NCBI GenBank assembly: GCA_023055425.1
Contig: JALGPY010000003.1
Span: forward strand, 69,424,991-69,488,990
Length of the DNA stretch: 64,000 nt
From: Linanthus parryae
Taxonomy: Eukaryota; Streptophyta; Magnoliopsida; Ericales; Polemoniaceae
Direction: 5' to 3'
The notes below the pieces were generated by a model. The model saw only the letters and a program-made list of their open reading frames with translations. It searched no databases and had not been told where the DNA came from. Every line of letters starts with the position of its first letter. Positions within the stretch are counted from its first letter, which is position 1. Of this stretch, positions 16,561 to 62,836 are shown one piece after another. The position numbers were made by a program, and so were the translations under genes.

Positions 16561-17813
16561 TTATAAGTTCAACTCAGTTTCAAAGGCTTGAAATAGCTAG
16601 TCTATTTCAAGGACTTGAAACAGCTTTCAAAGCTTTGAAACTGACTATGCTTTATATGCATAAACTTAGGGGGAGTTTCTGATCTTGATTCAACTCCTAA
16701 ACCCCTGTGCCTAATCATTTGTTATTTGATGATGAAAGACAAAGTATTTTGACACTTTAAACTTTATCTAATCCACCTGTTTGACTTAGTTTTGCAGGGA
16801 TATTATGTTTCCTATATTACAGGATCTATTTCCTAACTTGAGTCTTGCAGAAGGAAACTAAGTGTTGATTTGATTCTGTGATCAATCTGTTGTGTTTGAA
16901 AGTTTCCCAACTTATGTTTACACAAGATCAAATCAAAATCCTTGAAGATACTGACCAATCCGTTGGAGAAGTTGTTAGAGAAGTTAAAGATGAAGCTACA
17001 ATATAGGGAAGCTTGTTAAGAAGAGATCTTGAAGATCTGCAATTCAAACTGCTCTATAAAAGAGGGAAAGCTGAAGCAATACAACTGGACAATTAGCAGA
17101 TACACTCAAACACATTCAAGGATTGACAAGCAACAAAAAAGCAGACTCATTTCTCTCAATCCAAGCATTTGAAGAACACTGGATACTCACTGCAGATTGA
17201 GTTATAGTGTTCTTCTATTCTGAGGTTAATTTGTATATCATTCTGATATTCCTTCTAGTTCTTATTCTCGTGGAATGTTCAAGGTGAGCAATAGAGAATT
17301 CTTAGTTAATCAGTTAGCTAGAGCACGTACTAGATGAGTTAGTGAGAACAACAAGCTGTAACAGAGTAAGGCATCTCTCTGTGCTTGAGATCTTGGGCTT
17401 AGCTTTTGATTAAAAAGAACTGAGTTGGAAATCCTGCACAGAGAAGATCCCTGAGGTAGAGACATAGGTCCAAGTGGACTGAACTCTATGTATCTTGTGT
17501 CTCTTGCATTTACTTTTCAGTTCTATACTTAGTTCTTTTGCAGCAATCAAAACAATTTCATTTCAAGGGTTTGAAACTCATTTCAATGGTTTGAAACTCA
17601 TTTCAAGGCCTTGAAATAGACTTATCTTTTATACTTCAAGTGTTTTTATTCTAAGGGCTTGAAACTCATTTTAAGGCCTTGAAATACTCTTCACTCATTA
17701 TAATTCTTTTTGAAACCACTATTCTTGCAAGTTTAGCAAAAGTTGGCATACTCTATTCAACCCCCCCTTCTAGAGTTTTGATCCTGTATTTCTACCTACT
17801 GTACACCCCTTCA
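16561..17813 (+). repeat. 5' LTR of the SIRE-type element
   Basis: It begins (T)TATAAGTTCAACTCAG and ends ACACCCCTTCA, directly before the primer-binding site. It is very similar to 25115-26356 throughout, with scattered substitutions and small indels. It carries many copies of the TTTCAAGGCCTTGAAA-type palindrome at both ends. Confidence 0.9.
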
Positions 17814-17815
17814 AT

Positions 17816-17827
17816 TGGTATCAGAGC
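17816..17827 (+). other. Primer-binding site of the SIRE-type element (tRNA-iMet)
   Basis: TGGTATCAGAGC is complementary to the 3' end of plant initiator tRNA-Met plus CCA, two bases after the LTR end. The same tRNA is encoded at 52770-52841 in this window. Confidence 0.92.
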
Positions 17828-17862: not shown

Positions 17863-19076
17863 ATGAGTACTGTAGGTGATGGTGGTTTCTCTCATGGAAG
17901 AGCTGCTAACAGACCTCCTCTCTTATGTGGAGACAATTTTGTTCACTGGAAAGCCTTGATGAAATTTTTCATCATTGATCAAGATATAGAGCTTTGGAAT
18001 ATCATACAGAATGGTCCTGACACTTTCTTCACAGAGAAAGATGGGATTAAAACTCCCAAATCTGAAGATTCTCTTTCTTCTTCCAACTGAAACAATTTCC
18101 CAAAAACTATAAAGCTATGAATGTCTTATATTGTGCTTTGAGTGCAAATGAGTTCAACAGGATCTCAGGTTGCAACACCGCCAAGGAGATCTGGGATAAG
18201 CTTGTGGTGACTTTTAAAGGAACCAGCCAAGTCAAGCAAACCAAGATAAACATATATCTCACGCAATATGAGATATTCAAGATGAATGGAGAAGAGTCAA
18301 TCAGAGACATGTTCAAAAGATTCACTGACATTTTCAACAATCTTGATTCAATGGGAAAACATATTTCCAATGGAGAAAATGTTAGAAAGATTCTGAGAAG
18401 TCTTCCAAAGGCAAAATAGGAACCAAAGACTACTGCTATTGAGGAAGCTCAAGATCTTTCATCACTTCAACTTGATGACCTGCAAGGAAAACTCCTTACA
18501 CATGAAATATCCATGAATGAAGTTGATAGAGAATTACCAGAAGGTGTCAAGAACCTAGCTCTCAAGGAAAAGGATAATGAGCCATCTCAAAGCCTTGAAA
18601 CAGAAGATGATGATCAAGATCATATTGCTTTGATTTCCAAAGCCTTGACCAGAATTGTCAAAATGAAGAAGAACTTTGGAAACCAGGACTTCCGTAGAGA
18701 TAGACAAAGATCCTCCAGTCGCAAAGACTACAAAGGTAAATCTTCTTCACATGGTAATAAGCCTAAATTTATTAATTGCTTTGAGTTTGGTGATGCAAGA
18801 CATTTGATCAGAGACTGTCCCTACAAAAAAAGAAAAAACTTTCAGAAGAAAGATCATGATAGAAGAAAGAAAGCTATTATAGCTTCCTGGAGTTATTCAG
18901 AAACCTCAAGTGACTCTGAATCTGAAGAAGAACATGCCAACCTATTCTTTATGACCAAGAATGATGAAAGTTCTGAAAAGAACATTGAGGTAATGGTAAA
19001 TTGTTTAATATCAAAACCAACAGAAGCCCTCTCTGATTACCTTAGAATAATGCTTTTAAATGAAGGTGATAACTGA
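17863..19076 (+). pseudogene. SIRE-type gag (decayed)
   Basis: The ATG at 17863 starts a gag with the LLCGDNFVHWKALMKFFI motif, then a UBN2-type capsid region (AKEIWDKLVVTFKGTSQVKQ near 18180), a charged linker and a zinc knuckle at about 18774-18840. In the knuckle the second cysteine is replaced (CFEFGDARHLIRDC), and stops at 18088 and 18417 break the frame. The product would have been the capsid/nucleocapsid protein of the element. The C-terminal acidic SDSESEEEH stretch is also usual in this group. Confidence 0.82.
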
Positions 19077-19379
19077 AAAAGATTAGAGTTTTGAAAGAAA
19101 AAGTTCATGAGCTGGCAAAAGAGAACTTTCATCTTGTTTGTCTGAATCAGAACCTTGAAATTTCTTAGAAGAAAACTCACAGTGATTTCAAGGCCTTGAA
19201 AACCAGTTTCAAAGCGTTGAAACACAAGTCAAGGAAGTAGTCACTAAGAACTCTCTTCCGAGTGACAATATTGTGACTCAAAGACATCAAGTTGATGAAC
19301 TGGATAAACAAAAGACTACTCTAACTGAGAAACTTCAAGAATCTAAATCAGTCAAGACAAAGAACACAACTTGAACTTG

Positions 19380-22300
19380 ATTCTTGGAGGTAGCTTAAAT
19401 TCTGTTCACAAAAATGGTATTTGATAAAATCAATATGAAGGTTCAATTACACTTGGTGACAAAGGCAAATGCATCATTCTAGGTATTGGTAAAGTTGGTA
19501 CAAATGCTGAAAATTCCATTTCTGATGTGTATCTAGTTGATGGTTTGAAATTCAACTTGCTTAGTGTATCTCAGCTTTGTGATAATGGTAGTAAGGTTAT
19601 TTTTGACAAAGATAAATGTGTGGTGCAAGATGAGAAATCTGGCAATTGCATCCTCACTGCCTCTAGGTCAAACAATGTCTATACTTTTCAAACTAACAAA
19701 GTTGCAGGAGAAAACTTGAAGTGTCTCAAGGCCTTGAAATAAGATTCAAAGCTTTGACACAGAAAGTTGGGGCACATTATCTTGCATACCTTGAACACGC
19801 CAGTTTCCAAGAACTTAGTAAGAGGTCTACCCTCTATCAAGTTCAAAGATGAATAAGTATGCAAAGCATGTGCACAAGGCAAGCAAACTAGAAGATCATT
19901 CAAACCAAAGAACTTTGTAAGTACTACTAGACCCATTGAATTACTGCATATGGATCTTTGTGGTCCTATGAGAACTCCAACCCCAAAGGGTAAGAAGTAC
20001 ATGCTTATTATTGTTGATGATTTCTCTAGATATACTTGGGTTATGTTTCTCAAAGAAAAATCTGAAGCTTTCACTGAATTTTCAAAGCTTTGCAGAGAAC
20101 TTCAAACCTTGAAAAACCTACATATTGCTTCAATAAGAAGTGATCATGGTAGAGAGTTTGATCAACTTGAGTTTGATGTATTCTGTTCTAAGCATGGTAT
20201 CTCTCAAACTTTTTCTGCTCCTTAAACTCCTCAAGAGAATGGAGTTTTTGAAAGAAAGAACATGACTCTTGAAGACATGTCAAGAACAATGCTTCTGGAA
20301 AACAAATTGCCAAAGTACTATTGGGAAGGAGCTGTGAATACAACAAACTATATTCTCAACAGGTGCTTGATCAGACCTATACAGAAGAAGACTCCTTATG
20401 AGCTGTTTAAAGGAAGAAAGCCAAACATTTCTTACTTCAAACCTTCTGGTTGTACCTTCTATGTACATAATAATGGTTAGGAAAATCTTGGTAAGTTTGA
20501 TGCAAGAAGTGATGAAGGTATTTTTCTTTATTATTCCCAGATAAGGAAAGCCTATAGAGTTTATAAAAAGAGAACCAAGATTTTTGAAGAAAGCATTCAT
20601 GTCATATTTTATTAAAGCTATGATGGTTCTTTGAGTGATAGTTTTGCCGATCATAATCTGAACAAGTATGATTTTGATACTGAAGAAGAAACCTCAAAAG
20701 GTTACAAGGAAATCTTACAGGAACAAAGAAGGCAATTTCAAGGCCTAGAAAATGAGGTTCAAAGCCTTGAAACAAAATCTCCTGAGAAGACAGCAGATCA
20801 AGCTACTACTTCAAGTTATCAAAGACTTGAAAACCAGATTGGAGAGCCTGAACCTTGAAAACCAAGGAGGAGATTTAAATATCTGCCATCTCATCCTGCT
20901 GATAATATTATTTCTAATCCAACTACTGGTACACAAACCATATCACAGTTGAAGAATATTTGTGCTTTTAATGCTTTTATCTCTCTTGTAGAACCTAAAA
21001 CTGTGAAGGAAGCATTACAAGAAGTAGACTGGATCATAGCTACGCAAAAGTGAACTCAATGTGTTTGAAAGGAACAAGGTTTGGAATCTAGTTCCTCCAC
21101 CAAGAAATCAGTCTGTTATTGGCACCAGATGGGTATTCATAAACAAGTTAGATGAGAATGGAAAGGTAATCAGGAACAAAGCTAGATTGGTAGCTCAAGA
21201 CTACAATCAAGAAGAACGTATTGACTATGAAGAAATTTTCGCTCCTGTTGCCAGGTTAGAAGCAATTAGAATTCTACTTGCATTTGCATCTCACAAGAAC
21301 ATGAAACTCTTTCAAATGGATGTGAAGTGTGTTTTTCTAAATGGCTATTCGTAAGAAGACATTTATGTTGCTCAACCTCCAGGTTTTGAAAATGACAAAT
21401 TCCATATCATGTTTATAAACTCGACAAGGCTCTTTATGGTTTGAAACAAGCTTCAAGGGCTTGGTATGAAAGATTGTCAAAGTGTTTACTGGAAAATGAT
21501 TTCAAAAGAGGATTAGTAGATAAGACCCTCTTCATAAAGACTCATGAGAAAGACATGCTTGTAGTTCAAATTTATGTTGATGATATTCTGTCTGGAGCTA
21601 CTAATGATGTTCTTTGCAAGGAATTCTCACGTCTTATGAGAAGGGAATTTGAAATGAGCTTGATGGGAGAATTGAACTTCTTTCTTGGACTTCAAATTCA
21701 TCAGATGAAGAAAGGCATATTACTACATCAAAGCAAGTATACACAAGACTTTTTGAACAAATATAATATGTCTCAGTCCACAGAAATCAAGACCCCCATG
21801 ATTTCAACATTGTCTTTAGACAAAGATGAATCTGGTAAGAGTGTTAAGGTGAAAGATAACAGATGTATGATTGGATCATTACGATACCTCACAGCTAGCA
21901 GACTAGATATCATGTTCAGTATTTGCATGTGTGCTAGATTTCAAGCTGATCCTAAAGAATCACACTTGACTGCAGTTAAAAGAATTTTTAGATATCTCAA
22001 AGGTACCAAAGAATTAGGGCTTTGGTATCCTAATCAATCTAATTTCTCTCTGTGTGGCTATTCAGAAGCTGACTTTGCATGATATAAAGTTGATAGAAAG
22101 AGTACGTCAGGATGCTACCAATTCCTTGGATCATCTTTAATTAGGTGGCATTCAAAGAAGAAAAACCCAGTTGCACCATCAACAGTAGAGGCTGAATACA
22201 TAGCAGCTGGAGCATGCTGTTCACATGTGTTATGGATAGCACAACAAATGAGAGACCTTGGATTTGATTTCAGAGATCTACCTATCAAGTGTGACAACAC

Positions 22301-25114: not shown

Positions 25115-26356
25115 TTATAAGTTCAACTCAGTTTCAAAGGCTTGAAATAGCTAGTCTATTTCAATGGCTTGAAATAGCTTTCAAAGCTTTGAAACTGACT
25201 ATATGCTTTATATGCATAAACTTAGGGGGAGTTTCTGATCTTGATTCAACTCCTAAACCCATGTGCCTAATCAGTTGTTATTTGATGATGTAAGGCAAAG
25301 TATTTTGACACTTTAAACTGTATCTAATCCATCTGGTTGACTTAGTTTTGCAGGGATATTATGTTTCCTATATTACATGATCTATTTCCTAACTTGACTC
25401 TTGCAGGAAAGGAAACCAAGTGTTGATTTGATTCTGTGATCAATCTGCTGTGTTTGAAAGTTGCCCAACTTATGTTTCCAAAAGATCAAATCAATATCCT
25501 TGAAGATACTGACCAACTATCCGTTGGAGAAGCTGTTAGAGAAGTCAAAGCTGAAGCTACAAAATAGGGAAGTTTGTTAAGAAGAGATCTTGAAGATCTG
25601 CAATTCAAAATGCTCTATAAAAGAGGGAAAGATGAAGCAATACAACGGGACCATAAGCAAAGACACTCAAACACATTCAGGGATTGACAAGCAACAAAGA
25701 AGCAGATCCATTTCTCTCAATCCAAGCATCTGAAGAACACTGTATACTCACTGCAAATTCAGTTCTAGTGTTCTTCTATTCTGAACTTCATTTGTATATC
25801 ATTCTGATATTACTTCTAGTTCTTATTCTCGTGTATTTTTAAAGGTGAACAATAGAGAATTCTTAGTTAATCATTTAGCTAGAGCAGGTACTAAATAGGT
25901 TAGTGAGAACCACAAGCTGTAACAGAGTAAGGCATCTCTCTGTGCTTGAGATCTAGGGCTTAGCTTTTGATTAATAAGAATTGAGTTGAAAATCTTGCAG
26001 GGAGAAGATCCCTGAGGTAGGGACGTAGGTCCAAGTGGACTGAACTCTATATATCTTGTGTCTCTTGCATTTAATTTTTAGTTCAATACTTAGTTCTTTT
26101 GTAACAATCAAAAAAATTTCATTTCAAGGGTTTGAAACTCATTTCAAGGCCTTGAAATAGACTTATCTTTTATACTTCAACTGTTTTCATTCCAAAGGGT
26201 TGAAACTCTTTTCAAGGCCTTAAAATACTCTTCACTCATTATAATTCTTTTTGAAATAACTCTTTTTGCAAGTTTAGCAAAAGTTGGCATACTCTATTCA
26301 ACCCCCCTCCTTCTAGAGTGTTGATCCTGTATTTCTACCTATTGTACACCCCTTCA
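25115..26356 (+). repeat. 3' LTR of the SIRE-type element
   Basis: The pair of 16561-17813, starting directly after the polypurine tract and ending ACACCCCTTCA. Many substitutions and several small indels relative to the 5' LTR indicate an old insertion. Confidence 0.9.
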
Positions 26357-26479
26357 GTTGTGATCATACAAACAAACAAGGTACATAATCGTCTTCCTTT
26401 ATCACATTATGATGGCTTAACCTGTGATTCATGGAGGGTCTTGATCAGGAATCCATTATTGTATTTCCGCTGCGCATCC
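26357..26479 (+). repeat. 3' LTR of the older Copia element, second part
   Basis: It continues the LTR interrupted at 16560. Shared blocks with the solo LTR include TTCATGGAGGGT and the terminal TTTCCGCTGCGCAT, matching TTTCCGTTGCGCAT at the end of the 5215-6608 copy. Confidence 0.75.
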
Positions 26480-43880: not shown

Positions 43881-46800
43881 ATTTTTCTTTTTTTGTGTGC
43901 AGCTCATGAAAGGATCTTGACTATTGACAACTTTATTTGCCATCGTCAAATGTTATGAAATCGGTGTCGTTTGTGCAGATCTAGAGCTAAATGGGTTAAC
44001 CATCTTCAGTTGTATCTTATGACTGTGCGCTACTTACAGATCTGGTTCTAGTGACTTTAAGAATCAGTTGGATTGCTCCTGCTACGGTGTCAGAGTTTCT
44101 TATTGCTTGGGGTGGAATTTGAGTGGACAAAAAGAAGTGTTGGCGGTTGGCTCCATTGGTCGTCATGTGGGTAATTTGGAGGGCGTGTAACAGGAAGACA
44201 TTGATGTGAGGCGTGTGCCTGATGCTTTTGTCAGAGGTCTTATCATTCAGGTGCTATTGGAAAGGCACGCCCGCTCGTCGATTTGTTCGATGTCCTTTTC
44301 CATTTATGACAGTTTTTATTAATATCCCAAAAATGTGCACACCATTGCTTTTAAGTCTTTCAATGGTCTCAATCTTCTTTTTCTACCGATAGCATTTTTA
44401 TTTACCTGTAAATGAAAAAGACAGATATGACTTGATTACAAGTACTCAATTTACAATACCTATGTTATTTTGGGGCCACTGTTTTATTCTATTTATGACC
44501 TGTAGTGAATAAGATGCTTTATGAAACTTCAAAGACGAACCACAGTGTGTCCATTATCTTGTCCCACGTCCGCAGTGTGCTGTGTGCCTGTGCCCATCAT
44601 TGAGAAAGTACTGATATATTGAGGGAGTTTGGTATGACTTATAAGCAGCTTATAAGTCAGTTGTGGATTATAAGTTGAAGCCAACTGATAAGTAGTGTTT
44701 GGTATGGACTTATAAGTTAAAAAATTTTGATTCCAACCTATATAAGTTCATAGTGTTAAATGAATCTAGAAAAAGTTGAGTTTTTTAAGCTTTTTTTTGA
44801 GCTCTTGGACTTAAACATCTTTTTCACCAAACACACCTAGATTTTTTGTTCATCTTTTTTGTCGTAGACTTTTTTGACATAAACTTAGAAGTCAACTTAA
44901 GTTGCAAATAAGTTGTACCAAACTCGCCCATTTAGACACTCCACGTAGAGTATCTGACACATTTTGATTTGCAGAAGCCATATCGTACATGTTTGCGTCT
45001 TTTACTGTTCAACGAAGGTACAATTCCTACTTTGAAATGCACCTACTTCATGGTGTTCAAGTGTAGACTCTTTCAACAACTATAAAGAATGAGGGCAGAA
45101 GGATGCTTCACCTTGTTAACGAAACTGAAGCTTACACCTTGCCGGGGTGTGGTACAGAGAAGAGAACTCCAATTCGAAGTCCTACTCTGATTGAAGAAAG
45201 CCATATTTAATTACAAAAGAAGTCGAATAAAAAGTTCAAAAATCAGGCCCAGTAAACCCGACGAAAAGAGAAGAGCAGAGACAGAAATGAAGAATTCTTG
45301 TTCCGGGTTGCAAACTATTTTTCTCTCCCTCCTCTCTTGTGACCGACCCACCACCAAGAACACGTTACTGTGAATCCACCTAGTAGTGGTATTCCCACGT
45401 GGTGGATGTTGGTGGGTGGTTGGCGGAGGAACCCCCCTCAGAGATCCATGCTTCACAGGCTCAGTTCCTGTAAGCTTTTACAACGGATAAGCGAATTATT
45501 TGCAGGCACGCAACATGCAATTTTTGAGTGGCACGGAGCAACACCTAGGCATTGCTAGATGCCAGTGCCACTATGAAGAACTGAGCAGTTTTCCGAAGAT
45601 GAGGAGACAAGTCATTAGCAGAGCAATCGTCTTTCTTATGTTTGTTAATACTAAAGCATCCAGTAAAAGGAATAGAGAAACGGTTCACAATAATTTTCTT
45701 AGTTCCATAGTTGCTTGTATCATAGCACTGACAGCAACGAGCTTTATTATTTGCCAAATCAGAAGAGAGAGAGAGAGAGGGGTGGTTATGTTATAATCTC
45801 AGGAAGTAGAGGAAGTTGCTGTTGCTCAACAAAAAAATATATTGTTATCGAGGCACAGTGGCGGATCCACATGGGTTTAAGTGGGGGCCATTCCACTTTT
45901 GGAAAACCTAATTTTACACTTATTTGGTTTAGCTTTTTCAGTTTAGTCCCCTCAAAATTGCACTAAAGCCCCCAGTCAATTTTACACGATTAAAAATTTA
46001 CTGTTATTTCCCAAAATTTTCCAATTTAGCCCCTACTGTCGCGAAGTCCTGGATCCACCCCCTGCTTATGCGGTTTCAGAATGTTGTATCATTTGGATAG
46101 CAGAAGGGGATTGGAAAACTAGCTATTTTTACGAGGAAACGTTTGTCAAAAGGAGGAGACATTCAGACTCACGAAGACTCGTGTTGACTTTCCAATCATG
46201 AGGGTCTTAAGAATCTTATCCAAAAATCAAAAAAACTTGTAATGAATATGGCCCTCTTCTTCAAACACTCAGCTCAACTTTGACTGGTACAATGGATAAG
46301 GAGAGGCGTCGCAAATAACAAATCTTGTAAATTTTCTGCACAGGATGGTTTTCAGGCGCTTTATTAATGATAGTATTGAAATACTGTAGGAGTTTCTGTT
46401 AGCCTATTTATAAGATATTATTTGAAGAACAGGTAATACTGACACGAGATATTCATTCTAATGCTCTAGGTCCTGAGTGTGAAAACCTTAAAAAGCTTAA
46501 AAATTAAGCCAAGTATAACCAAACCAGTGTTACCACAATTCACTCATACCCCCGCGAATTGCGAATTGGATCGCGCGTTCCGAAACGTGGAACACCAGCG
46601 ATCCAGATCGCTTAATTTGACGATCCCAGCTTTGTTCCCTACTTTCACCTGAAGTATCTATTTAGAAGGGAAAATTAAATTTGGAAATGTTAAGTTACAT
46701 ATATTTTTAGAGTATTGACTTTTAAATGTTGTATAAATTGAGCAGTTTTATACTTCATGATTTGTGGAAAATGGTATAACTCCTATAAAGGTATCCAAAG

Positions 46801-49800
46801 AAGCCTACCCTTGGCGTACCGAATTTCATAGGGTATGGCGTTCCGCGATCCCGTTCCCGTTCCACGAACCGGAACGATCCGCGTTCCTGGTAACTTAGAA
46901 CCAAACGACTAATTCAAGACTTAGAGCTCCAAAACAATCAGAGGATATACCTGCAAACAGCTTTATAGCTCTATATTTGGTAGATCCACTGGAATCAACA
47001 TAATCATTAGTCTGAGAGGTCATCCACTTGTTTAAGAGGACGAAAGGTAAATTTGAAGGTACATTTATGATTTATAATGATACACCTTGGGAAAGCCAAT
47101 GATACAATTGGCTGGAGTTTCAATACTCAGATTTATTGTTCTCCAATCTTCACATTACCTGGATTAGAGATAAAATTGTGTGGTTTCTAATAGCATCACA
47201 GCTATTTGAAATCGTAATTATTAGAGATAGCAGGTTTTATCACTAAGGAGAAACGGCGTAGTTTTGGTATAAGTACAATTAGTTACCCTAAGTCATCTTA
47301 TTATTGTTAATTCGTTACTTTAGGATAAGTCTATATAATAGCTATTGTATTTCCTTTTTTTAGTATCAATTTGAAGAACTCATTCAGATCCCCTTTTTCT
47401 CTCTATTTTTCTTCGATTACTCTTCTCTCGATCATCTCCTACTTCTGCGATTACTCTGTTGATCGGACCTGGTTATGGATTTTCAATATGGTATCAGAGC
47501 CTGGTTCCAAACGAGGCTGAGATGATTCACACTCGAAGGTCCTTTTCAGTCCGATTTGCATCACTCGTCGTCGGCGATCGGTTGCTCTCTATTGAAACCC
47601 TAAGCACGAAGATTTGATTTCAAAGGAAGATGACGAGCGTTCGTAATGAAGATTGTCTGTTCCTTCCGCTGTTGCTACTGGCTTGTTTCTTTGAAGAGGA
47701 GGTGGATTTGAAAATTGTGAAGCCAAAGTCGATTTGCGAGAGAGATTTTCTCGGTGATCGGTCAGGAGTGACCGCCGAGGAGGCAAATCAAGTAGGGCAT
47801 GGTTGCGGAGATCAGGTGGTGTTTATTGGTCTGGTGGTGTTTATTGGCCTGTGATTTGGTGTTTCTGGTTCATTTTTTGGCTGGATTTTCGGTCCTTGAG
47901 ATTCCAGGTTTGGTTTCCAGGTCTTCTCCGGTTGCATAATGATGATATTCGTGATTGCTTATTTGAGTTTGTTTCCACTATATGTGGATTTTTGGAAGAT
48001 ATTTTGCTTCTTCTTTTGATGGCTTTGGAGAGCTCTGCTATCTCTCAGTTTGCCTATGATTTGCAGCAGCAGGTGGTTGCTGATTTCATTTTGTTTCCAC
48101 TATTTGTGGATGTTATTGAAGCCTTTGTGCTTCTTCTTTTGATGGCTTTGGAGAGCTCTGCTATCTCTCAGTTTGCCTATGATTTGCAGCAGCAGGTGGT
48201 TGCTGACTTCAGTTTGTTTCCACTATTTGTGGATGTTATTGGAGCCTTTGTGCTTCTTCTTTTGATGGCTTTGGAGAGCTCTGCTATCTCTCAGTTTGCC
48301 TATGATTTGCAGCAGGTGGTTGCTGATTTCAGTTTGTTTCCACTATTTGTGGATGTTATTGAAGCTTTCGTGCTTCTTTATTTGATGAGGTTGGAGAGCT
48401 CTGCTATCTCTCAGGTCGCCTCTTGTTTGCAACCAAGTTTGTTGCTGATTGTCTTTTGTCATGAGTTGATGTTCAACTTCTAAATTGAAGTGTTTTGCGG
48501 TGGGTGTGCTGATCCCAGCCTGCGTACTGGTTGCTTGAATCAAGTAGTTGTGATTGTGCTTGAGAATTTAGTAGGTTTTCGCACTAGTTTGAACTCGCTG
48601 ATGGTGGATGTTCTGTATTTTGTGTCCCTGATTTTGATTGAGGATTCTAGCGTTTATGGAGGTTTTGTGATGGCGTTTGATGCTTCCTCAAGATATTACC
48701 TCTGTAATTCAGTCTCTTTTGTTGGCTCCAGCTCGGTAAATATGGTGATTCAACTCCTGAATCAGAAGGTGAAAGTGCTCAATAAGTCTGCAGTCCTGCA
48801 TCGGATAGGTAACAGAAACCAGTTTGGTGGTTACAGGTTGGATTGGGCTGAAGTTAAGGTCAGTAAGAAGCTAGAAAATCTAGAACATCCACTGCCTGTT
48901 ATTGAAGAAGTGAAACTATTGCTCAATTGCAGTTACCATGCATCCATTGTAGTGATGACTGATGAACCTGTGCATGACATTGACAGAGCATCTCAAGCTG
49001 ATCGTAGTCCAGAACCCATAAGATATGCTGTTGTTAGTATGGCGAATGGACGTGCCATTCGATTATCAGCTGTTGGTATTAGCAATTCAGGAAAAGCATT
49101 TGGGAACTCGTCATCTCTATCTTCGATGAGGAAATTGAGTGATTGTGCTGTTCTGGCATCTTGGGATAGTTCCTATGATCTTATGACATCGAAATCCAGC
49201 TGGAATAGGTTTTTGGTGTTGCACAATGCATCAGGATTGTGCATTGTTCGTGCTATTGTTATCGGGTTGTCCAATAAGGGTGATAGTCATGCTTCAGACG
49301 TGCTCTTTAAGATTGTCGAGACTGTTCCTCTTGTTTCCGCTTTAAGAGTTGATCCGGAGTACAGCTTATTGTTCTTCAGTACTCATGCTCAGTTTAATCT
49401 CTCAGTTAAGGGAGGGAACTGTTTCTTGGAAGCTGTGGTAAATAACTCGCAAGTTTTACAAGTAACTCAGTCACCATCAGGTTCACAATGCTCACAGTTG
49501 GTGCTGGTTCCTAAAGGACTAGGAACTGCACTTGTTACGATATATGAAATTGCACTCTCTCCTTCACTTGCTGCAACTTCTGTGGTTCAAGTTGCTAACG
49601 TAGATGGGGCTAAGATTATTTCACCAGAAGAACTAAGTCCTGTGGAAGGAAGCCCGCAGTCTATTGAACTTTTGGCTGGAATTTCTGATGGAAGTACTTT
49701 TGGCTCTTCCCATTACTTGTACATGAAAATTTGTGCCCATATTGAGGATCACGGCGTTGAGCTTGTAGATAGTTATGGCATTTTGCTTTCTACGGACGGA

Positions 49801-52613
49801 TATTGTGAAGGTGTTGAACTTTGTAATTTGTGGTAAACATATTGGGAATACTATTGTAGTTGCAACAGTCAATGGGAATGGTGATAACAAGATTTGTCAG
49901 GCTCAGTGCGAAGTAGCAGTTGGGATCCCTTCTTATGCAGCAGCAATGAATGTTCAGAGTGACCAGTTAGCTGTTGGACGTAAGATGCCTACATTTCCTA
50001 CTTTCTCTGTGAGTAATCTAAATTCAAGTTATGAATTCTGCAAGAATTACTGGTGGACAATCAATGATGAGAAGATATTGAAGATGGTAGCAAGAAAAAC
50101 ATTGAGAACAAAGTTATATGAAGCATTGGCAGGTCATACTGACATCATTGTAAATGTGGTATTATGCGTTCGGAAGCCCGAGGAAGCTATTGATATGTTT
50201 ATGTTTGCGATCATGCACATGCACCACGATAATCTGTCAATGGCAATGGTGTATTATGCTCAAGCTGCTGCTGCAGTTGGTGGTGGACAATTATCATGGG
50301 CTGGGAGAGGTAATGTAGATCAGCATAGACAAAAAGGCTTGATGTTGAAGCAGCTCCTCACAAAGTTGTTATTTCACGATGGTGGGATTTATTTTTCGCT
50401 TGGTTCAAGAGGTGCTGTAGAAGAAGGCGAACTCGGAAGTTTTTTGACTGATGGGTTTAGCATACAGCAGTTTTTGTTTAACGCTGCTTGCCTGTGTCAG
50501 CAAGTTGGGCTATATGACAAGCCTATTCAAATTCAGAAGAGAGTTGGGGCATTTGCATCGGCCTTGGACATAATAAATAAGTTCCTGTCACAAGCAATTT
50601 GTGTTCTATCACGCGGGCGATTGGATGGTGAAAGTGGGACTGCTGCGCTCATTCATTCTGAGAATGATACCTTAGGGACATACAAGTACTCACCTGACAT
50701 TAGTCTCCAAGAGAGGGAACAAGTATTGCTACAAGAAACTGTGCTGAGGCAACTTGAAGCCATATTATCTGTACTTAAGCTGGCAAGGGGTAGCCATCAT
50801 TCAAATGCTCTAAGGGAGGTGGCAAACCTTCCAGTTCTGAATGCTTCTTGTGGTGCTTGGGAGAATGCAAGTTGAAGGTGGCAAGCATACCCTCTTCAAC
50901 TTGAGGGGGCATATTAGAGATAGCAGGTTTTATCACTAAGGAGAAATGGCGTAGTTTTGGTATAAGTACAATTAGTTACCCTAAGTCATCTTATTATTGT
51001 TAATTCGTTACTTTAGGATAAGTCTATATAATAGCTATTGTATTTCCTTTTTTTAGTATCAATTTGAAGAACTCATTCAGATCCCCTTTTTCTCTCTATT
51101 TTTCTTCGATTACTCTTCTCTCGATCATCTCCTACTTCTGCGATTACTCTGTTGATCGGACCTGGTTATGGATTTTCAATAGTAATATTTTGGAAGAAAT
51201 TTCAACATGAAGGGCAAATGGCCAAGCAGATCTTCTGTCATCTTTCATCCTTCATATTTCAATCAAAGGGTACTCTGAGGAGTGAGGACTCACCTGATAG
51301 TTGGTAGGTTGGAAAATCGAACTTTGAAGGTGAAAAAACCGTCTGGGATGCCCCTACCTTGTCTCATTTATTCTAAGCTGGCTGTCCCATGTTGTTCGCA
51401 AAGCTAATATTACAGCCACGGAAGAGATAGTTCTAGATAGTTGATTTCTGTTTCCTCTTGACTAAGTACCATTCGCAATGTGTCAAAACTGCAAGGTTCT
51501 TCAAGTTGGATAAAGATCAAAATTGTGTCATCAGGTTGCAAACTTCACTTTCTCTTGGCTCACTTGACTGGTTTGCTCAACAAGTTATGTTCCTTGGACC
51601 TTAGTTGTTTGGAATCGTAGGGTAAGAACGTAGATTGCGATAGGCTATGGCTTACAGGATTCAGGGTAACAGGCGTGGACTTCTCAGATGAGAAGAAATA
51701 AATACTGGCGGGACATAGAAGCGAAGCATTTACCAGTATATGTGATTCAAATTTGCAACTGCCTAGGGTACAAGGGAACAGTAATGACTGAAACATCTCC
51801 CCAACATGAAATCAATGATCATTAACAGAAGTTAGGGTAATTCACCTCTGGCTTTCCAGGATTGGAACACGTGCAAGGATGAATTCACAGAAGAGCTCCA
51901 GTATTTCATAAGCAGCCCATATATTTTGTTCTCGTATGACATGCTCCACCTACACCATAGACAACAATAGTTACATACAAAGTGCTTCCAAAAGCAAAAG
52001 TAGGGGTTAAGTAAATCTGATCTTGGGACCTACTCGAATACGAGCAATTGCTTCTTGCCCAGCCTGCAGAAACTGGGCTATCTCTCTGCGCATATGTTTT
52101 AGCTGCATATCCCTTTTGTTTTGCAGCAATTTTATGCGTGAAATCGCCAGATTCAAGCATGTTTTACTGTAAAAGACAAGGAATTAACACCTTCCCAGAT
52201 GGTGAAGCATACAAATCAACACATAACAATGAATATAATGATGAGCAAAGTGATAAGAACTCCAAGATCATCTCATACCAAAAGAATCAGCTTACGATCA
52301 CAAAGAGCTTTGTGATATAATGATGAGCAAAGTGATTTTTTTTTTTTTTTACAAAAATAGGGCAAATCAAAATTGGGTTTTGAGGGTTTCAGTGAACTGC
52401 GTCTGATAGAGCTCATAATCATCCAAACAGGTCATCGGAATTTCAAAAGACGGGTGAAATGAACATACAATCGGGCGATCAATTGAATGAATTAAACTGA
52501 AATTCGATTTGAATTAACGCTATGGAAGGTGAATGAGTTTAGCAAAAGATGGAATCTACTAACCATTTAGCACCAAGTAGACCTCTGTTGAAGAGCTGAT
52601 TCAGAAGCGACAT
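38400..52613 (-). CDS. IST1-like protein (regulator of VPS4, ESCRT-III associated), six exons
   Basis: The minus-strand exons are 52613-52564, 52166-52034, 51949-51846, 42195-42024, 41902-41762 and 38744-38400. All junctions are GT-AG, the phases agree, and the total is 945 bp (314 aa, TAA stop). Residues about 12-175 form the IST1 domain: RRGLLGAKC-like start (NRGLLGAKC), RREIAQFLQAGQEAIARIRV, ILELFCEFILARVPILESQ, ASIIFAAPRCSDVPDLLQVR, FASKYGKEFIAAASELRPDT, EKLSVNAPSAEVRLKLLKDI. The last exon is a low-complexity tail ending in an Ala-rich helix-like stretch. IST1 proteins bind ESCRT-III and the AAA ATPase VPS4 in multivesicular-body sorting in the cytoplasm and on endosomes. Intron 3 is 9.65 kb and intron 5 is 3.0 kb, both filled with repeats; intron 3 holds a retrotransposon in antisense orientation. 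The frame is intact, so the gene is probably functional. Confidence 0.93.
39551..40230. repeat. Tandem duplication of 340 bp in intron 5 of the IST1-like gene
   Basis: Copy one (39551-39890) and copy two (39891-40230) begin with the same AATGTGGCAAAA and share long identical runs, including a 60-bp block around ATTCGTTACTCATGAGGAGC. Only scattered substitutions and small indels separate them. Confidence 0.9.
40908..41185 (-). mobile_element. MITE, copy A (intron 5 of the IST1-like gene)
   Basis: It starts GAGTTTGGTATGACTTATTTG and contains TTTATGTCGAAAAAGTC. Its reverse complement matches the element at 44628-44930. The distal terminal repeat is truncated next to a CT-rich stretch near 41186. 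Confidence 0.65.
41223..41639 (+). mobile_element. TRIM-like terminal-repeat element remnant
   Basis: A 114-bp LTR-like unit at 41526-41639 begins TGTTGAGAAGTCCCACATCG and ends GATTCTAACA. The first 30 bases recur at 41372, and the distal part (TTGCCAATTGGTTTTGAGG) recurs, diverged, at 41263. A purine tract GTGAGGGGGCG precedes the 41526 unit. This layout fits a small terminal-repeat retrotransposon in miniature, rearranged. Confidence 0.55.
42477..42690 (+). mobile_element. tRNA-derived SINE in intron 3
   Basis: The 5' part has pol III A-box-like GGCCTTGTGGTAAAGGCCTG (about 42490) and B-box GGTTCGAGCCCC (42542). A non-tRNA body of about 130 bp follows, ending near CACTGTTGTAAAACAA. The spacing of the boxes and the length fit plant SINEs. 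Target duplications were not resolved. Confidence 0.7.
42873..42911 (+). repeat. (GA)n microsatellite
   Basis: A pure GA dinucleotide run of about 19 units in intron 3 of the IST1-like gene. Confidence 0.97.
43000..44039. other. Part of intron 3, no gene
   Basis: Unique-looking intron sequence with a short TA run near 43794 and a TTTA-rich tract near 43850-43880. Confidence 0.5.
44040..44205 (+). pseudogene. LINE-derived zf-RVT fragment
   Basis: One frame reads ISWIAPATVSEFLIAWGG, stop, VDKKKCWRLAPLVVMWVIW, RACNRKT. This is the conserved W...P...W.IW.E.N.R segment found C-terminal to the reverse transcriptase in plant LINE-derived proteins (zf-RVT). It is a short fossil in intron 3. Confidence 0.6.
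44628..44930 (+). mobile_element. MITE, copy B (intron 3 of the IST1-like gene)
   Basis: The termini GGGAGTTTGGTATGACTTATA and, inverted, GGGCGAGTTTGGTACAACTTA enclose about 300 bp. It is the same family as copy A at 40908-41185 in the opposite orientation. Confidence 0.72.
45847..46062. mobile_element. hAT-type MITE in intron 3
   Basis: It starts CAGTGGCGGATCCACATGG and ends CTGGATCCACCCCCTG, an imperfect inverted pair of the CAGTGGCGGA type common in plant hAT MITEs. No clear 8-bp target duplication was seen. Confidence 0.55.
46063..47213. other. Part of intron 3 with an unclassified repeat
   Basis: 46550-46640 and 46810-46900 hold GC-rich phrases in opposite senses (GATCGCGCGTTCCGAAACG versus GGCGTTCCGCGATCCCGTTC) around an AT-rich middle, suggesting a MITE-like or foldback repeat. 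No gene is seen. Confidence 0.35.
47219..47488 (+). repeat. 5' LTR of the nucleoporin-carrying retrotransposon
   Basis: It starts TATTAGAGATAGCAGG and ends GGATTTTCAATA. A TATA-like CTATATAATAG lies at about 47332 and a long pyrimidine-rich stretch follows, as expected for R/U5. Confidence 0.95.
47489..47501 (+). other. Primer-binding site (tRNA-iMet)
   Basis: TGGTATCAGAGCC directly abuts the 5' LTR and is complementary to the 3' end of the initiator tRNA-Met encoded at 52770-52841 with CCA added. Confidence 0.95.
47803..48483 (+). CDS. ORF with 41-residue tandem repeats inside the nucleoporin-carrying retrotransposon
   Basis: A 226-codon frame without a clear ATG at its start. From about 47975 to 48415 it holds a 123-bp (41-codon) tandem repeat with units at 48018, 48141, 48264 and a degenerate one at 48384. 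The third unit lacks one CAG codon, so every unit stays in frame. The repeat core LMALESSAISQFAYDLQQQV alternates with hydrophobic LFPLFVDVIEAFVLLL. It ends at a TAA (48481-48483), after which the GP210-like ORF continues in the same frame. I do not recognise the repeat. It may be element leader sequence that happens to be open, or a third captured fragment. Confidence 0.4.
   Translation: MRRSGGVYWSGGVYWPVIWCFWFIFWLDFRSLRFQVWFPGLLRLHNDDIRDCLFEFVSTICGFLEDILLLLLMALESSAISQFAYDLQQQVVADFILFPLFVDVIEAFVLLLLMALESSAISQFAYDLQQQVVADFSLFPLFVDVIGAFVLLLLMALESSAISQFAYDLQQVVADFSLFPLFVDVIEAFVLLYLMRLESSAISQVASCLQPSLLLIVFCHELMFNF
48490..49836 (+). CDS. GP210: Captured GP210 (nuclear pore membrane glycoprotein 210) fragment
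   Basis: A 448-codon frame in phase with the preceding repeat ORF, separated by one stop. From residue about 155 to 437 it reads like plant GP210: DEPVHDIDRASQADRSPEPI, ANGRAIRLSAVGISNSGKAF, TSKSSWNRFLVLHNASGLC, LVSALRVDPEYSLLFFSTHA, PKGLGTALVTIYEIALSPSL, VQVANVDGAKIISPEELSPV. GP210 is a large nuclear-envelope protein with repeated Ig-like lumenal domains; this piece would be lumenal, with no membrane anchor. Residues 1-150 are not assigned. No introns interrupt the homologous stretch, although plant GP210 genes have many, which suggests capture from spliced RNA. A frame change near 49800 moves the homology into the next ORF. It is a partial copy, not a functional nucleoporin gene. Confidence 0.8.
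   Translation: MFCGGCADPSLRTGCLNQVVVIVLENLVGFRTSLNSLMVDVLYFVSLILIEDSSVYGGFVMAFDASSRYYLCNSVSFVGSSSVNMVIQLLNQKVKVLNKSAVLHRIGNRNQFGGYRLDWAEVKVSKKLENLEHPLPVIEEVKLLLNCSYHASIVVMTDEPVHDIDRASQADRSPEPIRYAVVSMANGRAIRLSAVGISNSGKAFGNSSSLSSMRKLSDCAVLASWDSSYDLMTSKSSWNRFLVLHNASGLCIVRAIVIGLSNKGDSHASDVLFKIVETVPLVSALRVDPEYSLLFFSTHAQFNLSVKGGNCFLEAVVNNSQVLQVTQSPSGSQCSQLVLVPKGLGTALVTIYEIALSPSLAATSVVQVANVDGAKIISPEELSPVEGSPQSIELLAGISDGSTFGSSHYLYMKICAHIEDHGVELVDSYGILLSTDGYCEGVELCNLW
49775..50875 (+). CDS. Captured GP210-NUP93 fusion frame
   Basis: A 366-codon open frame, +1 relative to the preceding ORF. Residues 13-100 continue GP210 (VLNFVICGKHIG, then VVATVNGNGDNKICQAQCEV, NVQSDQLAVGRKMPTF, NYWWTINDEKIL). A stretch of GP210 seems missing between KHIG and NTIVV. 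Residues 152-350 read like plant NUP93 (Nic96 family): NLSMAMVYYAQAAAAVGGGQ, LSWAGRGNVDQHRQKGLMLK, QLLTKLLFHDGGIYF, LYDKPIQIQKRVGAFASALD, CVLSRGRLDGESGTAALIHS, EREQVLLQETVLRQLEAILS. NUP93 is a scaffold nucleoporin of the inner ring. Residues 101-151 are of unclear origin. Both host fragments are in sense with the LTRs and fused without a stop. The frame ends 26 bp before the polypurine tract. The fusion is seen directly; any product is inference. Confidence 0.82.
   Translation: MAFCFLRTDIVKVLNFVICGKHIGNTIVVATVNGNGDNKICQAQCEVAVGIPSYAAAMNVQSDQLAVGRKMPTFPTFSVSNLNSSYEFCKNYWWTINDEKILKMVARKTLRTKLYEALAGHTDIIVNVVLCVRKPEEAIDMFMFAIMHMHHDNLSMAMVYYAQAAAAVGGGQLSWAGRGNVDQHRQKGLMLKQLLTKLLFHDGGIYFSLGSRGAVEEGELGSFLTDGFSIQQFLFNAACLCQQVGLYDKPIQIQKRVGAFASALDIINKFLSQAICVLSRGRLDGESGTAALIHSENDTLGTYKYSPDISLQEREQVLLQETVLRQLEAILSVLKLARGSHHSNALREVANLPVLNASCGAWENAS
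50912..51181 (+). repeat. 3' LTR of the nucleoporin-carrying retrotransposon
   Basis: It directly follows the polypurine tract TTGAGGGGGCA and is identical to 47219-47488 except for one substitution. It is followed by the target duplication GTAAT. Confidence 0.95.
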
Positions 52614-52769
52614 CGATTCCCCGATATGAACACGCCCACTTTCCGATTGAATTCAGCGAGCCTACCTTGACCCAATTGATCGAGAGTGGAGTGGTTTCAA
52701 TTGCAGACCTCTTTCAACTGATGGAGTTCATTAAGAGATATATTTATTCATTCTACTGTAACAACACAA

Positions 52770-52841
52770 ATCAGAGTGGCGCAGCGGAAGCGTGGAGGGC
52801 CCATAACCCTCAGGTCCCTGGATCGAAACCAGGCTCTGATA
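52770..52841 (+). tRNA. trnM-CAU (initiator): Initiator tRNA-Met (CAT)
   Basis: A 72-nt cloverleaf. The acceptor stem ATCAGAG/CTCTGAT is fully paired, the anticodon loop is CCCATAA with CAT at 52802-52804, and the T loop is ATCGAAA, the initiator signature (A in place of TTC). The anticodon stem is GAGGG/CCCTC and the T stem CCTGG/CCAGG; both differ from the usual plant initiator (GTGGG/CCCAC and CCAGG/CCTGG) by paired, compensating changes, so the fold is preserved. An upstream CAACACAA motif and a T-run terminator flank it. It supplies initiator tRNA for cytosolic translation and its 3' end matches the primer sites of the retroelements at 17816 and 47489. Confidence 0.96.
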
Positions 52842-52847
52842 GGTTGC

Positions 52848-52873
52848 TTTTTTTTTTTTTTTTTTTTTTTTTT
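52848..52873 (+). terminator. RNA polymerase III terminator
   Basis: A run of 26 T residues starts six bases after the tRNA end, far longer than the four or five T needed for pol III termination. Confidence 0.9.
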
Positions 52874-54161
52874 CTTTGTTAAAACATATCAATTAATTAG
52901 AAAAACAATGATTAAATATCTTCTTTTCTCCTTAAATATTTTTTTCTTATTTTTCGTTCAGAGAAAAATAAATAGTGAATAAACATAGATTCCATACAAC
53001 AACAAAATAGAAAAACGGGTTTCCATTCTTTTTGTTGATTTTGAAAAATGTTGCTAGTTATTAGAAAAGCAACAATTTAAGCTTTTCTTATTTTTTTCTA
53101 AAAAAATAAGCTTTTCTTTTTTTCATTTAAAGAGAGAATAACTAGTAAATATGGAGATGTTTCGATTCAAAAACTATACTTAGCTTTTCTCAAGAAAAAA
53201 TGAATATGCACAAGTTCAATTCAAATTCAAATTCAAATTCAAGAAATTAGATGAAGTAATTATTCGCAGCAATAAGAAACAACCATCCAAACAAGTCACA
53301 TTCTTGTTTATCTTTTTCTCTCCTAATGCTTTACCACAAGAGTGAATTTGATGTTTTAGGAATTGAAGTTAAATCTTTCATAAATCACATACTGGAATAT
53401 TTTAGGAGTATGTTTACTCACCCAGCGATGTTTTCTTGAGATTTTGTTGGACAAAATTGGAACATATTTCTTTTATTCTCCTTTCTTACTAAAACATAAA
53501 CTGAATAAATATAGAAAACTGACAGATACATAGTCACCCACCATAGTTCTTATTATTGAGTGTGGAAAGTTCACATAGATTCATGCATATCGACTTCTTT
53601 TTAAATTATAAGTACCATCTTTCAATCTTTCTGGTGTATATATTTACTAATTGCATATTATTCACCCGCCTTTTATAGGTGCTCCTCGAGAAATGATAGA
53701 TGGGGAATAGCACCATCAAATGTGAGGAGTTTGAACATTCCTCATTTTAACCAAAACATTCCAACCTTTCAAAGTTTTGGGATATTTTCGAGTTTGTTGG
53801 TAATATTATTGGGATAGTAGGGTCAACGTAATCATAAATATGACAATTCTAACATTACGACAATATATTTGTCTTACCATTATATTTTCTTCCATTGAAT
53901 CACACCGAATCATGTACTGATAATAAGTGATAAGTTTTTCTCAAATAGAGATTACAAAATTGAATTTTAAATCTCGCAAATGCGCAATCACCCAGCTTAC
54001 AAATATTCATTTAGTGAGATTTCCTAAACTCAAAATATAAAAGAAAAACATACTCATTAAATTTTGTCGTTGAAGGGCACTACTGGAATGATTTTGCAAA
54101 TCCCTCTGATTTACTCGTGCATGCAAGGTTAAACATGATTACACAACAATATTCATGAACA
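52874..54161. other. AT-rich intergenic DNA
   Basis: No gene or RNA recognised. A short AATTCA tandem run lies near 53217-53240. Confidence 0.6.
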
Positions 54162-59462: not shown

Positions 59463-60766
59463 ATGGTCAGGAGCACAAGTGAAGAAGAGTTTGAGCTGAG
59501 AAGAGGGCCATGGACTGTTGAGGAAGACTCACTTCTCATCAACTACATTACTTGTCACGGCGAAGGCCGCTGGAATCTGTTAGCCCAATGCTCTGGTAAG
59601 TAGTTATCAAGTGAGCGACATCGTGTTATGTTCTCCTTCTCGGGTCATATCTCTAAAAGGAACTTGTATTTCCTCATTTTCCAGGTTTGAAGAGAACTGG
59701 GAAAAGCTGTAGACTTAGATGGCTCAATTACCTAAAACCAGACATTAAGCGCGGAAACCTCACAACACAGGAACAGCTCCTGATTCTTCAACTCCATTCC
59801 CGGTGGGGTAATAGGTAATTAAGTATCTAATTTACCATATACCACTCCGTGTCTTCTCTTTATCATCATTCTGACTTTTACCACTATTCACTGGGTCACC
59901 AATGATTTGGATAGCAAAATGATGTAAATTTTTTGATAATCTTTTCATAGTGTTGTAGAGTAAAAATTCTCTATAACACAGTGAAAAAAGTAATTAAAAA
60001 ATTGCATCGTTTTGCAATTCAAATCACCCGGTCAAACTCACTCAGAGACGAGTCAAAAAGTCAAGATGGGAAGAAAGAGAAGAGACATAGTGGTAGCAAA
60101 CACATTTTTTGAACTTGATGACTGATCTGTTTCTGCATATATTTTTTTGTATCTTATAGGTGGTCGAAGATTGCTCAGCATTTACCTGGACGAACAGATA
60201 ACGAGATCAAGAACTACTGGAGAACAAGAGTGCAAAAACAGGCACGTCATCTCAAGATCGAGTCCAACAGCAGAAAATTCATCGATGCAATACGATGTGT
60301 CTGGATACCGAGATTACAAGAACAAATGGAGCAAACATTGTCATCATCATCGACCTCGTCAACTACACCATTCTCTAATGATCATTCTATTTCTCCAAAG
60401 ATGGAAGCCAGAAACTCCTTGGTGGAGTCTCTGATACCCCACCTTCAGACTCCAACAGAGTCATCATCGCAAGAACAACCACTATCAAATGAAAGTTCGG
60501 TTTTCTGCTTCTCAGATTACAGGACAAGTTCACAGCTGCCTGAAATAGTGGAGAACCAAACTAGCCCAGCCCCTGACAGTGCAATTTCAAACCATGGCTA
60601 TTATGTAGACCCCAGTGGCTATGATGTGGAGCTAAATTTGGACGACACTTCAGCGGTGGGGTCTCGGGGATGTTGGTTCACGGACGACCAAGTTGCCGGA
60701 AACCAGTGGATAAGTAATAGCACGGCGAGCTCTTTATGGAGCCCGGATGAATTGTGGCAGTTTTAG
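59463..60766 (+). CDS. MYB62: R2R3-MYB transcription factor, subgroup 20 (MYB62-like), three exons
   Basis: The exons 59463-59595, 59685-59814 and 60160-60766 have GT-AG junctions and total 870 bp (289 aa). R2 spans about residues 13-63 ([39 protein letters not shown]) with its three tryptophans at 17, 37 and 57. R3 spans about 66-115 ([59 protein letters not shown]). The exon junctions are those usual for R2R3-MYB genes. After R3 the motif [14 protein letters not shown] and the C-terminal SPDELWQF are as in MYB62/MYB116. The protein binds DNA in the nucleus; Arabidopsis MYB62 acts in phosphate starvation and gibberellin responses, which I infer only by family. The frame is intact. Intron 2 contains a MITE. 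Confidence 0.92.
59885..60065. mobile_element. MITE copy in MYB intron 2
   Basis: It shares GATTTGGATAG, AAATGATG and the GTAGAGTAAA/CTCTATAACAC hairpin arrangement with the element at 58505-58755. Inverted ends are GGGTCACC...GGTCAAAC-like and partly decayed. Confidence 0.55.
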
Positions 60767-62153: not shown

Positions 62154-62836
62154 CTAGAACAACATCCTAATCTTCCCCAATCCCTCGATGTCAGCCATCA
62201 AGTGGTCTTGGCAGAAGTCAGGAGCAGAAAACAGAAAACATTTGTTATAGCTACTACAAGAGTGATGAGAAACAAGCAAATCAGCAACTGAGTTGCACTC
62301 CCTACACACATGATGAACTTCGTTGCTGGTAATGCTGAGGAGATCTCGGATCTTGGCGATTTGGCTCCAAAGGGGGTGGCTAGAAGAGGCAGAAGAGACC
62401 AAAGCCACAGCCTCAAGAGAGTCAGATTCTAAAATTGCATTGTCATACCCCAACTCCTGGAAAGCTAGCAGCCCTTCCAACATGGCCCACAATTCCCCTT
62501 GGACGATGGCTCTGATGCCAACTCTGCGCTGTAAGCCCCAAATCCATGTAGCATTGTTGTCCCTGCAAACAACCCCAATGGCCCCATAATTCTTCCACTG
62601 GGAAAAGGAGAAGTCCACATTAATCTTCAGCTTCCCTTGAGGAGGGTGGATCCATCTGACTAAGGTAGGCCTGGCAGTGAGATGGCCAGGAATAACTGAG
62701 AGATTTTTGGCAGTGGTTCGGACCTGGTAGTAGATGAAGCTTTCCAGGTTTGGGGGGAGTTTAAAAGAACTATCATGGAGACGGAAATTATGCCACATCC
62801 AAGCATAATTGACCGTAGTGGTGAATATCAAGGCCT
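62154..62836 (-). pseudogene. LINE-derived RNase H domain (RVT_3), 5'-truncated
   Basis: A minus-strand open frame of about 225 codons without an ATG at its 5' end. It reads WIHPPQGKLKINVDFSFSQW, GVVCRDNNATWIWGLQRRVG, QGELWAMLEGLLAFQELGYD, LESDSLEAVALV, EVHHVCRECNSVADLLVSHH, the conserved order of the RVT_3/RNase H domain of plant LINE proteins (acidic positions in NVD, GELWA, ESDS and VAD). The 3' side includes an A-run (about 62119-62130 on this strand) as in a LINE tail. The frame is cut at 62836 by a stop, and the sequence at 62860 by an LTR. The domain itself has no internal stop. Confidence 0.8.

Follow-up and report, generated by a model that had tools for sequence, protein, structure and literature searches.

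A young LTR retrotransposon of Linanthus parryae with segments of three host genes and older copies pointing to serial capture

Most accounts of how LTR elements capture genes rest on inference from the end products. Such capture is already known from maize Bs1, an LTR retroelement that carries segments of three host genes in a hybrid frame (as summarized in PMC13317346). In rice and sorghum, a survey described host genes lying in LTR elements, with neutral and constrained cargo mixed (as outlined in PMC3726574). For LTR elements of the Triticeae, Sabot and Schulman (2007) explained chimeras by switching between co-packaged RNAs (as summarized in PMC13317346). No description of an LTR element that captured nucleoporin sequence, or of a comparable family, was found by title or abstract in the literature searched, which includes few subscription journals.

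The window analysed here, a stretch of 64,000 nucleotides of Linanthus parryae DNA, contains an LTR element which, like Bs1, carries segments of three host genes. In contrast to Bs1 as it appears in the summary of PMC13317346, most of the interval from the leader to the polypurine tract (PPT) is captured sequence, the genome preserves older copies that predate the last capture and show its precursors, and the leader is joined to many different cargos. As in rice and sorghum, host genes lie inside an LTR element, but the survey, as outlined in PMC3726574, takes captured genes singly, whereas the window holds a serial mosaic with intermediates. As for the Triticeae insertions in their summarized form, the chimera can be explained by switching among co-packaged RNAs, with the difference that the foreign RNAs can be named as particular host mRNAs and that the joints can be read against both the donor and an older copy. 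The real finding is serial capture with preserved intermediates, together with a leader family of varied mosaic cargo. The element is very probably a non-autonomous LTR retrotransposon of a serially capturing family, its cargo built stepwise by copy-choice reverse transcription and its pairing of two nuclear-pore genes most likely due to chance.

The element occupies positions 47219-51181 on the forward strand (3963 bp in total, 3423 bp between the LTRs). Its 5′ LTR (47219-47488; 270 bp, with ends TA...TA and a TATA box at 47332) and its 3′ LTR (50912-51181; 270 bp) differ only at LTR position 36 over the 270 bp compared, and sequence comparison places a GTAAT target site duplication on either side (47214-47218 and 51182-51186). 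The primer binding site (47489-47506) consists of 18 nt that are the reverse complement of the 3′ end of initiator tRNA-Met plus CCA. It begins a leader (47489-48786) containing about four tandem repeats of 123/120 bp (47951-48478). A coding role for these repeats, whose unit lengths are all multiples of three, was dropped because their differences are evenly spread over codon positions. At the other end, the element tail (50830-50911) comprises two hairpin arms (50868-50877 and 50894-50903) and the PPT (50901-50911), which lies ahead of the 3′ LTR. The hairpin, CAAGTTGAAG/CTTCAACTTG at 50868-50903, stands immediately ahead of the PPT and has a folding z-score of -1.26. An initiator tRNA-Met gene (52770-52841) sits 1.6 kb downstream of the element; it appears to be a variant in the T arm and anticodon stem relative to the plant sequence, and the primer site fits this variant over 18 nt.

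The LTRs, target duplication, primer site and PPT had been listed in a preliminary description of the locus, together with the lack of any retroviral gene, and all four were present on re-measurement. The near-identical direct LTRs, short target duplication, tRNA primer site and PPT identify an LTR retrotransposon. An autonomous Copia or Gypsy element would carry gag and pol domains, and Pfam gave neither in the open frames scanned. TRIM elements have a very short internal region and measure about 1 kb or less overall, and LARD elements combine LTRs of several kb with a conserved non-coding interior; the 3423 bp between the LTRs and the overall length exclude the former class, and LTRs of 270 bp the latter. 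Several intron-free host gene fragments between the LTRs place the element with the Bs1-like, gene-transducing ones. An LTR tag scan of viral contigs and an Rfam search of 46500-53500 gave no match. Elsewhere in the window, a direct repeat of about 1.26 kb (91%; 16561-17823 and 25115-26366) around Copia-like RVT_2 fragments (18420-22082) probably represents the two LTRs of an older Copia element. Other transposon fragments (Transposase_32, a weak copia gag, SH3_retrovirus and RVT_3) occur at 44-796, 8464-8934, 13250-13798 and 62157-62834, and an exon with a Myb DNA-binding domain at 60122-60763 probably belongs to a host MYB gene.

The cargo lies in sense orientation between leader and tail. 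GP210 sequence occupies about 48787-50074 in three stretches, A (48787-48885), B (48886-49843, with a change of reading frame near 49.8 kb) and C (49844-50074), separated by two internal deletions, the second of which, between B and C, removed two donor exons. It is followed by a piece of CCT6, the TCP-1 zeta chaperonin subunit (within about 50073-50226, annotated as 50075-50220), and by NUP93 (about 50219-50838), each consisting of three donor exons joined without introns. The preliminary description had recognized GP210 at 48952-50075 and NUP93 at 50228-50825; both identities stand, while both extents are corrected here. It had also regarded the entire cargo as nuclear-pore sequence, which is false because CCT6 fills the gap between the two nucleoporins.

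Protein comparison strongly supports the assignments. At E<=1e-3 the GP210 cargo has 79 protein matches, the best at 1e-110; many of these are named hypothetical, and the specific name "nuclear pore complex protein GP210" occurs in Camellia, Diospyros, Theobroma and others. The NUP93 cargo matches Arabidopsis NUP93A in the PDB (E 3e-81), and the CCT6 piece matches NCBIfam TIGR02347 (E 2e-12) and a PDB entry (E 1e-6). By these E-values and by exon-by-exon matches to host genes, the similarities exceed chance, and the lack of similarity that would have refuted the preliminary description does not apply. In a GP210 tree the cargo falls on the Ericales plus Cornales side (support 99/95) and a rosid placement is rejected (p 0.009), which gives no more than a hint of the host; a NUP93 tree gave no resolved placement of the cargo.

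A search of the window's own genome (1.51 Gb in 121 contigs) located intron-bearing donors for all three pieces. The GP210 donor exons are 85-93% identical to the cargo and occur on contig C38 (1415165-1424009) and again on C37 (4085338-4094133), perhaps as two haplotypes. The CCT6 donor (C90:20179414-20180163) has exons 87-95% identical and the NUP93 donor (C1:56143081-56146234) exons 91-93% identical. Read exon by exon against these donors, the cargo lacks 12 introns (eight of GP210, two of CCT6 and two of NUP93), and the captured templates were therefore spliced mRNAs. Many capturing elements of plants operate on DNA (as summarized in PMC13317346), and DNA-level capture or nested insertion (Pack-type, Helitron, gene conversion or gap repair with filler DNA) would be an alternative. 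Such an origin is extremely unlikely in view of the spliced exons from three genes, the anatomy of LTRs, primer site and PPT, and the short common sequences at most joints.

The older copies show in what order the pieces arrived. GP210 cargo was found at three places besides the window. A sibling near C1:93.34 Mb, with a mismatch of about 1%, has the leader, the GP210 stretches A and B and also the deletion between B and C; this copy breaks off at 49915, ahead of the place where NUP93 would lie. Two older copies, one on C37 (1.96 Mb, 87%) and one on C1 (152.65 Mb, 83-89%), retain the two GP210 exons lost from the window element and, at the point occupied by NUP93 in the window, continue into one more exon of CCT6. 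The tail that follows in the C37 copy is that of the window element, in its ancestral form across the later NUP93 joint. Genome DNA searches score the best candidates only; among these, NUP93 was matched outside the window solely in the host gene, and its absence from other copies is hence a lower-bound statement. Because the older copies keep two more GP210 exons and a longer CCT6, with no NUP93 found, the order was GP210 and CCT6 first, the deletion at TTGGGATTACTACT/TTGGGAATACTACT next and NUP93 later, and the entry of NUP93 replaced the 3′ part of CCT6.

The same copies bear on a simpler origin, in which a host fusion gene or read-through transcript with the three genes already joined was captured in one event. 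All pieces are in sense and the joints A/B, B/C, GP210/CCT6 and CCT6/NUP93 are all in frame (a chance of about 1 in 81 by our own arithmetic), apart from the one frame change inside GP210, as such a transcript would predict. However, the older copies hold more CCT6 without NUP93, and the donors sit on different contigs, which also excludes the adjacent donor genes that the preliminary description had named as fatal to its reading. Moreover, in the best 120 of the 286 proteins matched by the NUP93 cargo, none covers more than 64% of a GP210-CCT6-NUP93 query and none is a close relative of the chimera; among 7999 candidates none was found at E<=1e-3 except one Camellia GP210-like protein. A host fusion is therefore exceedingly improbable as the source.

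The joints themselves are consistent with copy-choice reverse transcription. The CCT6/NUP93 joint falls inside TGCGCCAT, which is common to both donors, and the NUP93/tail joint falls at TCCAtTTCT/TCCAgTTCT, a short sequence common to both sides. Common sequence at both NUP93 joints is the trace to be expected if a reverse transcriptase moved over to a host mRNA and then returned. The GP210/CCT6 joint lies at TGATGAGAAG/TGATAGAGAG, alike at 8 of 10 positions, the GP210 B/C joint lies at TTGGGATTACTACT/TTGGGAATACTACT, a 14-nt near-direct repeat, and the A/B joint has little sequence in common. Exon skipping was dropped as the cause of the A/B deletion, the joint of which falls inside exons; alone it is also insufficient for B/C, where the joint lies within the near-repeat and the end of the second exon is retained. 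Under stepwise copy-choice, the element RNA would presumably depend on the enzymes of an autonomous element for its packaging and copying. The reverse transcriptase would leave the element RNA at a short common sequence, copy a portion of a spliced host mRNA packaged along with it and return to the element RNA at another short common sequence, as the joints suggest. The two GP210 exons were deleted later at the 14-nt near-direct repeat, and the 3′ part of CCT6 also gave way later to NUP93, two steps shown by the comparison of copies. The joints of such an excursion are directly readable here because donors, pre-capture and post-capture elements share one genome.

With LTRs differing at one position in 270 bp, the insertion in the window is recent, in agreement with the preliminary description; youth applies to the insertion only, since the chimera itself is old, with a dS of 0.13 to host GP210. 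More precisely, the GP210 cargo differs from the host gene by a dS of 0.134 with a dN/dS of 0.70 (327 codons, no stops) and the NUP93 cargo by a dS of 0.122 with a dN/dS of 0.57 (203 codons), the host branch being included in both. At a substitution rate of 6.5e-9 per site and year, the insertion would have occurred about 0.3 million years ago and GP210 would have been captured about 10 million years ago. Fast evolution of the host genes was dropped as the source of the divergence, the host donors being only 90.4% (GP210, 992 nt) and 92.2% (NUP93, 612 nt) identical to the cargo. Because the host branch is under constraint, the branch of the element is near neutral. GP210 changes affect 10 of 48 sites that are invariant among orthologues and 39 of 246 variable sites, and NUP93 changes 12 of 62 and 20 of 141, respectively; amino-acid constraint on the cargo thus appears weak.

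The leader of the window element recurs in at least 57 matching stretches of its own genome, a number that comes from the 40 scored of 105 candidates. Ten leader loci besides that of the window were examined with flanks of 1.5 kb, and these are the best-scoring ones and not a random set; two of them (L051 and L052) overlap, leaving nine places. Two carry GP210 (L049 and L050). The others carry an H+-PPase (L052, E 9e-25), CDC45 (L053, E 7e-48), beta-tubulin (L054, E 7e-101), EMP70/TM9, RCC1 and RPL5 in a single 606-codon frame (L055), and importin beta-1 (L056, E 1e-23; PDB E 6e-18) with an RPL5 piece scoring below the Pfam cut-off. L057 and L059 have cargo in common (about 85% alike), which gave no PDB match and one weak Pfam match and is VPS13-like and antiporter-like by eye only, and L058 shows just the beginning of the leader. 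A cold-shock domain stands at the start of the frame in L054 and L055 (Pfam E 2e-7), in agreement with a PDB search for L054; in L056 and L059 it is seen by eye only, Pfam having reported none, and the window leader has none.

A primer-site-like sequence directly follows an LTR-like end in eight of the ten loci (all except L050 and L059), and all three siblings for which the far side was fetched have matching LTRs: L053 (99.0% over 193 bp), L054 (100% over 190 bp, without a clear target site duplication) and L055 (99.1% over 213 bp, GAATG on both sides). The mobile family that the preliminary description had anticipated is thereby borne out, and the window element appears to belong to a family that captures host sequence serially and carries mosaic cargo of many kinds. 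The tubulin piece of L060 (with L054) lies by eye inside a transporter-like piece with both joints in frame, comparable to NUP93 inside CCT6. By eye, the last piece ahead of the PPT is BTB-like and similar in L053 with L062 and in L055 with L061, and because of these similar ends cargo parts may be exchanged among family members.

The family also bears on the proposal that the element gained from nucleoporin sequence, for instance in the entry of its cDNA into the nucleus. GP210 and NUP93 in the window and importin beta-1 in L056 are nuclear transport genes, 3 of the 11 family donors identified by tools, yet this is a post hoc count over a handful of loci and no evidence of cargo choice. CCT6 lies between the two nucleoporins and was in the element earlier than NUP93, invariant sites of both nucleoporins changed as often as variable ones, the dN/dS ratios to the host are those of relaxed constraint, and the remaining donors include tubulin, RPL5, CDC45 and H+-PPase. 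The choice of nuclear-pore cargo envisaged at first is accordingly not upheld and was dropped as the leading reading; it is very unlikely, and because related elements carry quite different host genes the theme is probably due to chance.

Cargo pieces are often fused in frame, and some of the resulting frames are long. In L054 an uninterrupted frame of 1158 codons starts at an ATG by the primer site and ends 119 bp short of the 3′ LTR. It is open although 51 of 210 residues in its tubulin piece are different from those of a Chlamydomonas chain, a figure to which ordinary plant-alga divergence contributes. In a neutral simulation, 5.6%, 0.4% and 0 of 1000 runs stayed free of stops at 5, 10 and 15% residue change, respectively, and a simulation of the window cargo was stop-free in 0.1-4.7%. 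Long frames also occur in L053 (633 codons, one stop separating it from a same-phase frame of 257), L059 (614), L055 (606) and L056 (444). These observations argue against chance or ascertainment, by which the pieces would drift neutrally with nothing translated. That reading nevertheless has a probability only just short of even. The window copy is broken by the frame change near 49.8 kb and by a stop at 48481 that precedes a frame from 48484, sibling GP210 copies carry two stops (C37) and one (C1:93.34 Mb), and the ATG frame of L055 is interrupted by 14 stops over 992 codons, of which 13 lie downstream of the RPL5 piece. In addition, leader dN/dS ranges from 0.39 to 1.57 in the 41 pairs computed (mostly between 0.6 and 1), the 123-bp repeats are without codon-position bias, and the loci came to notice by best score.

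Because amino-acid constraint looks weak, the openness of the frame rather than the protein sequence may be what is kept, as the simulations and long frames suggest. Tentatively, gag-pol might have been replaced in this family by one mosaic frame taken in phase from many host mRNAs and beginning at an ATG by the primer site, its first part being in some members a cold-shock (RNA-binding) domain that was itself captured. Selection might then keep the frame open, for example if translation protects or packages the RNA, while amino acids drift, making the family a continuing generator of in-frame exon shuffling. If the mosaic frames are kept open, the family would be a natural exon-shuffling machine, and, if this is true, the role of cargo translatability in the spread of a non-autonomous element becomes testable.
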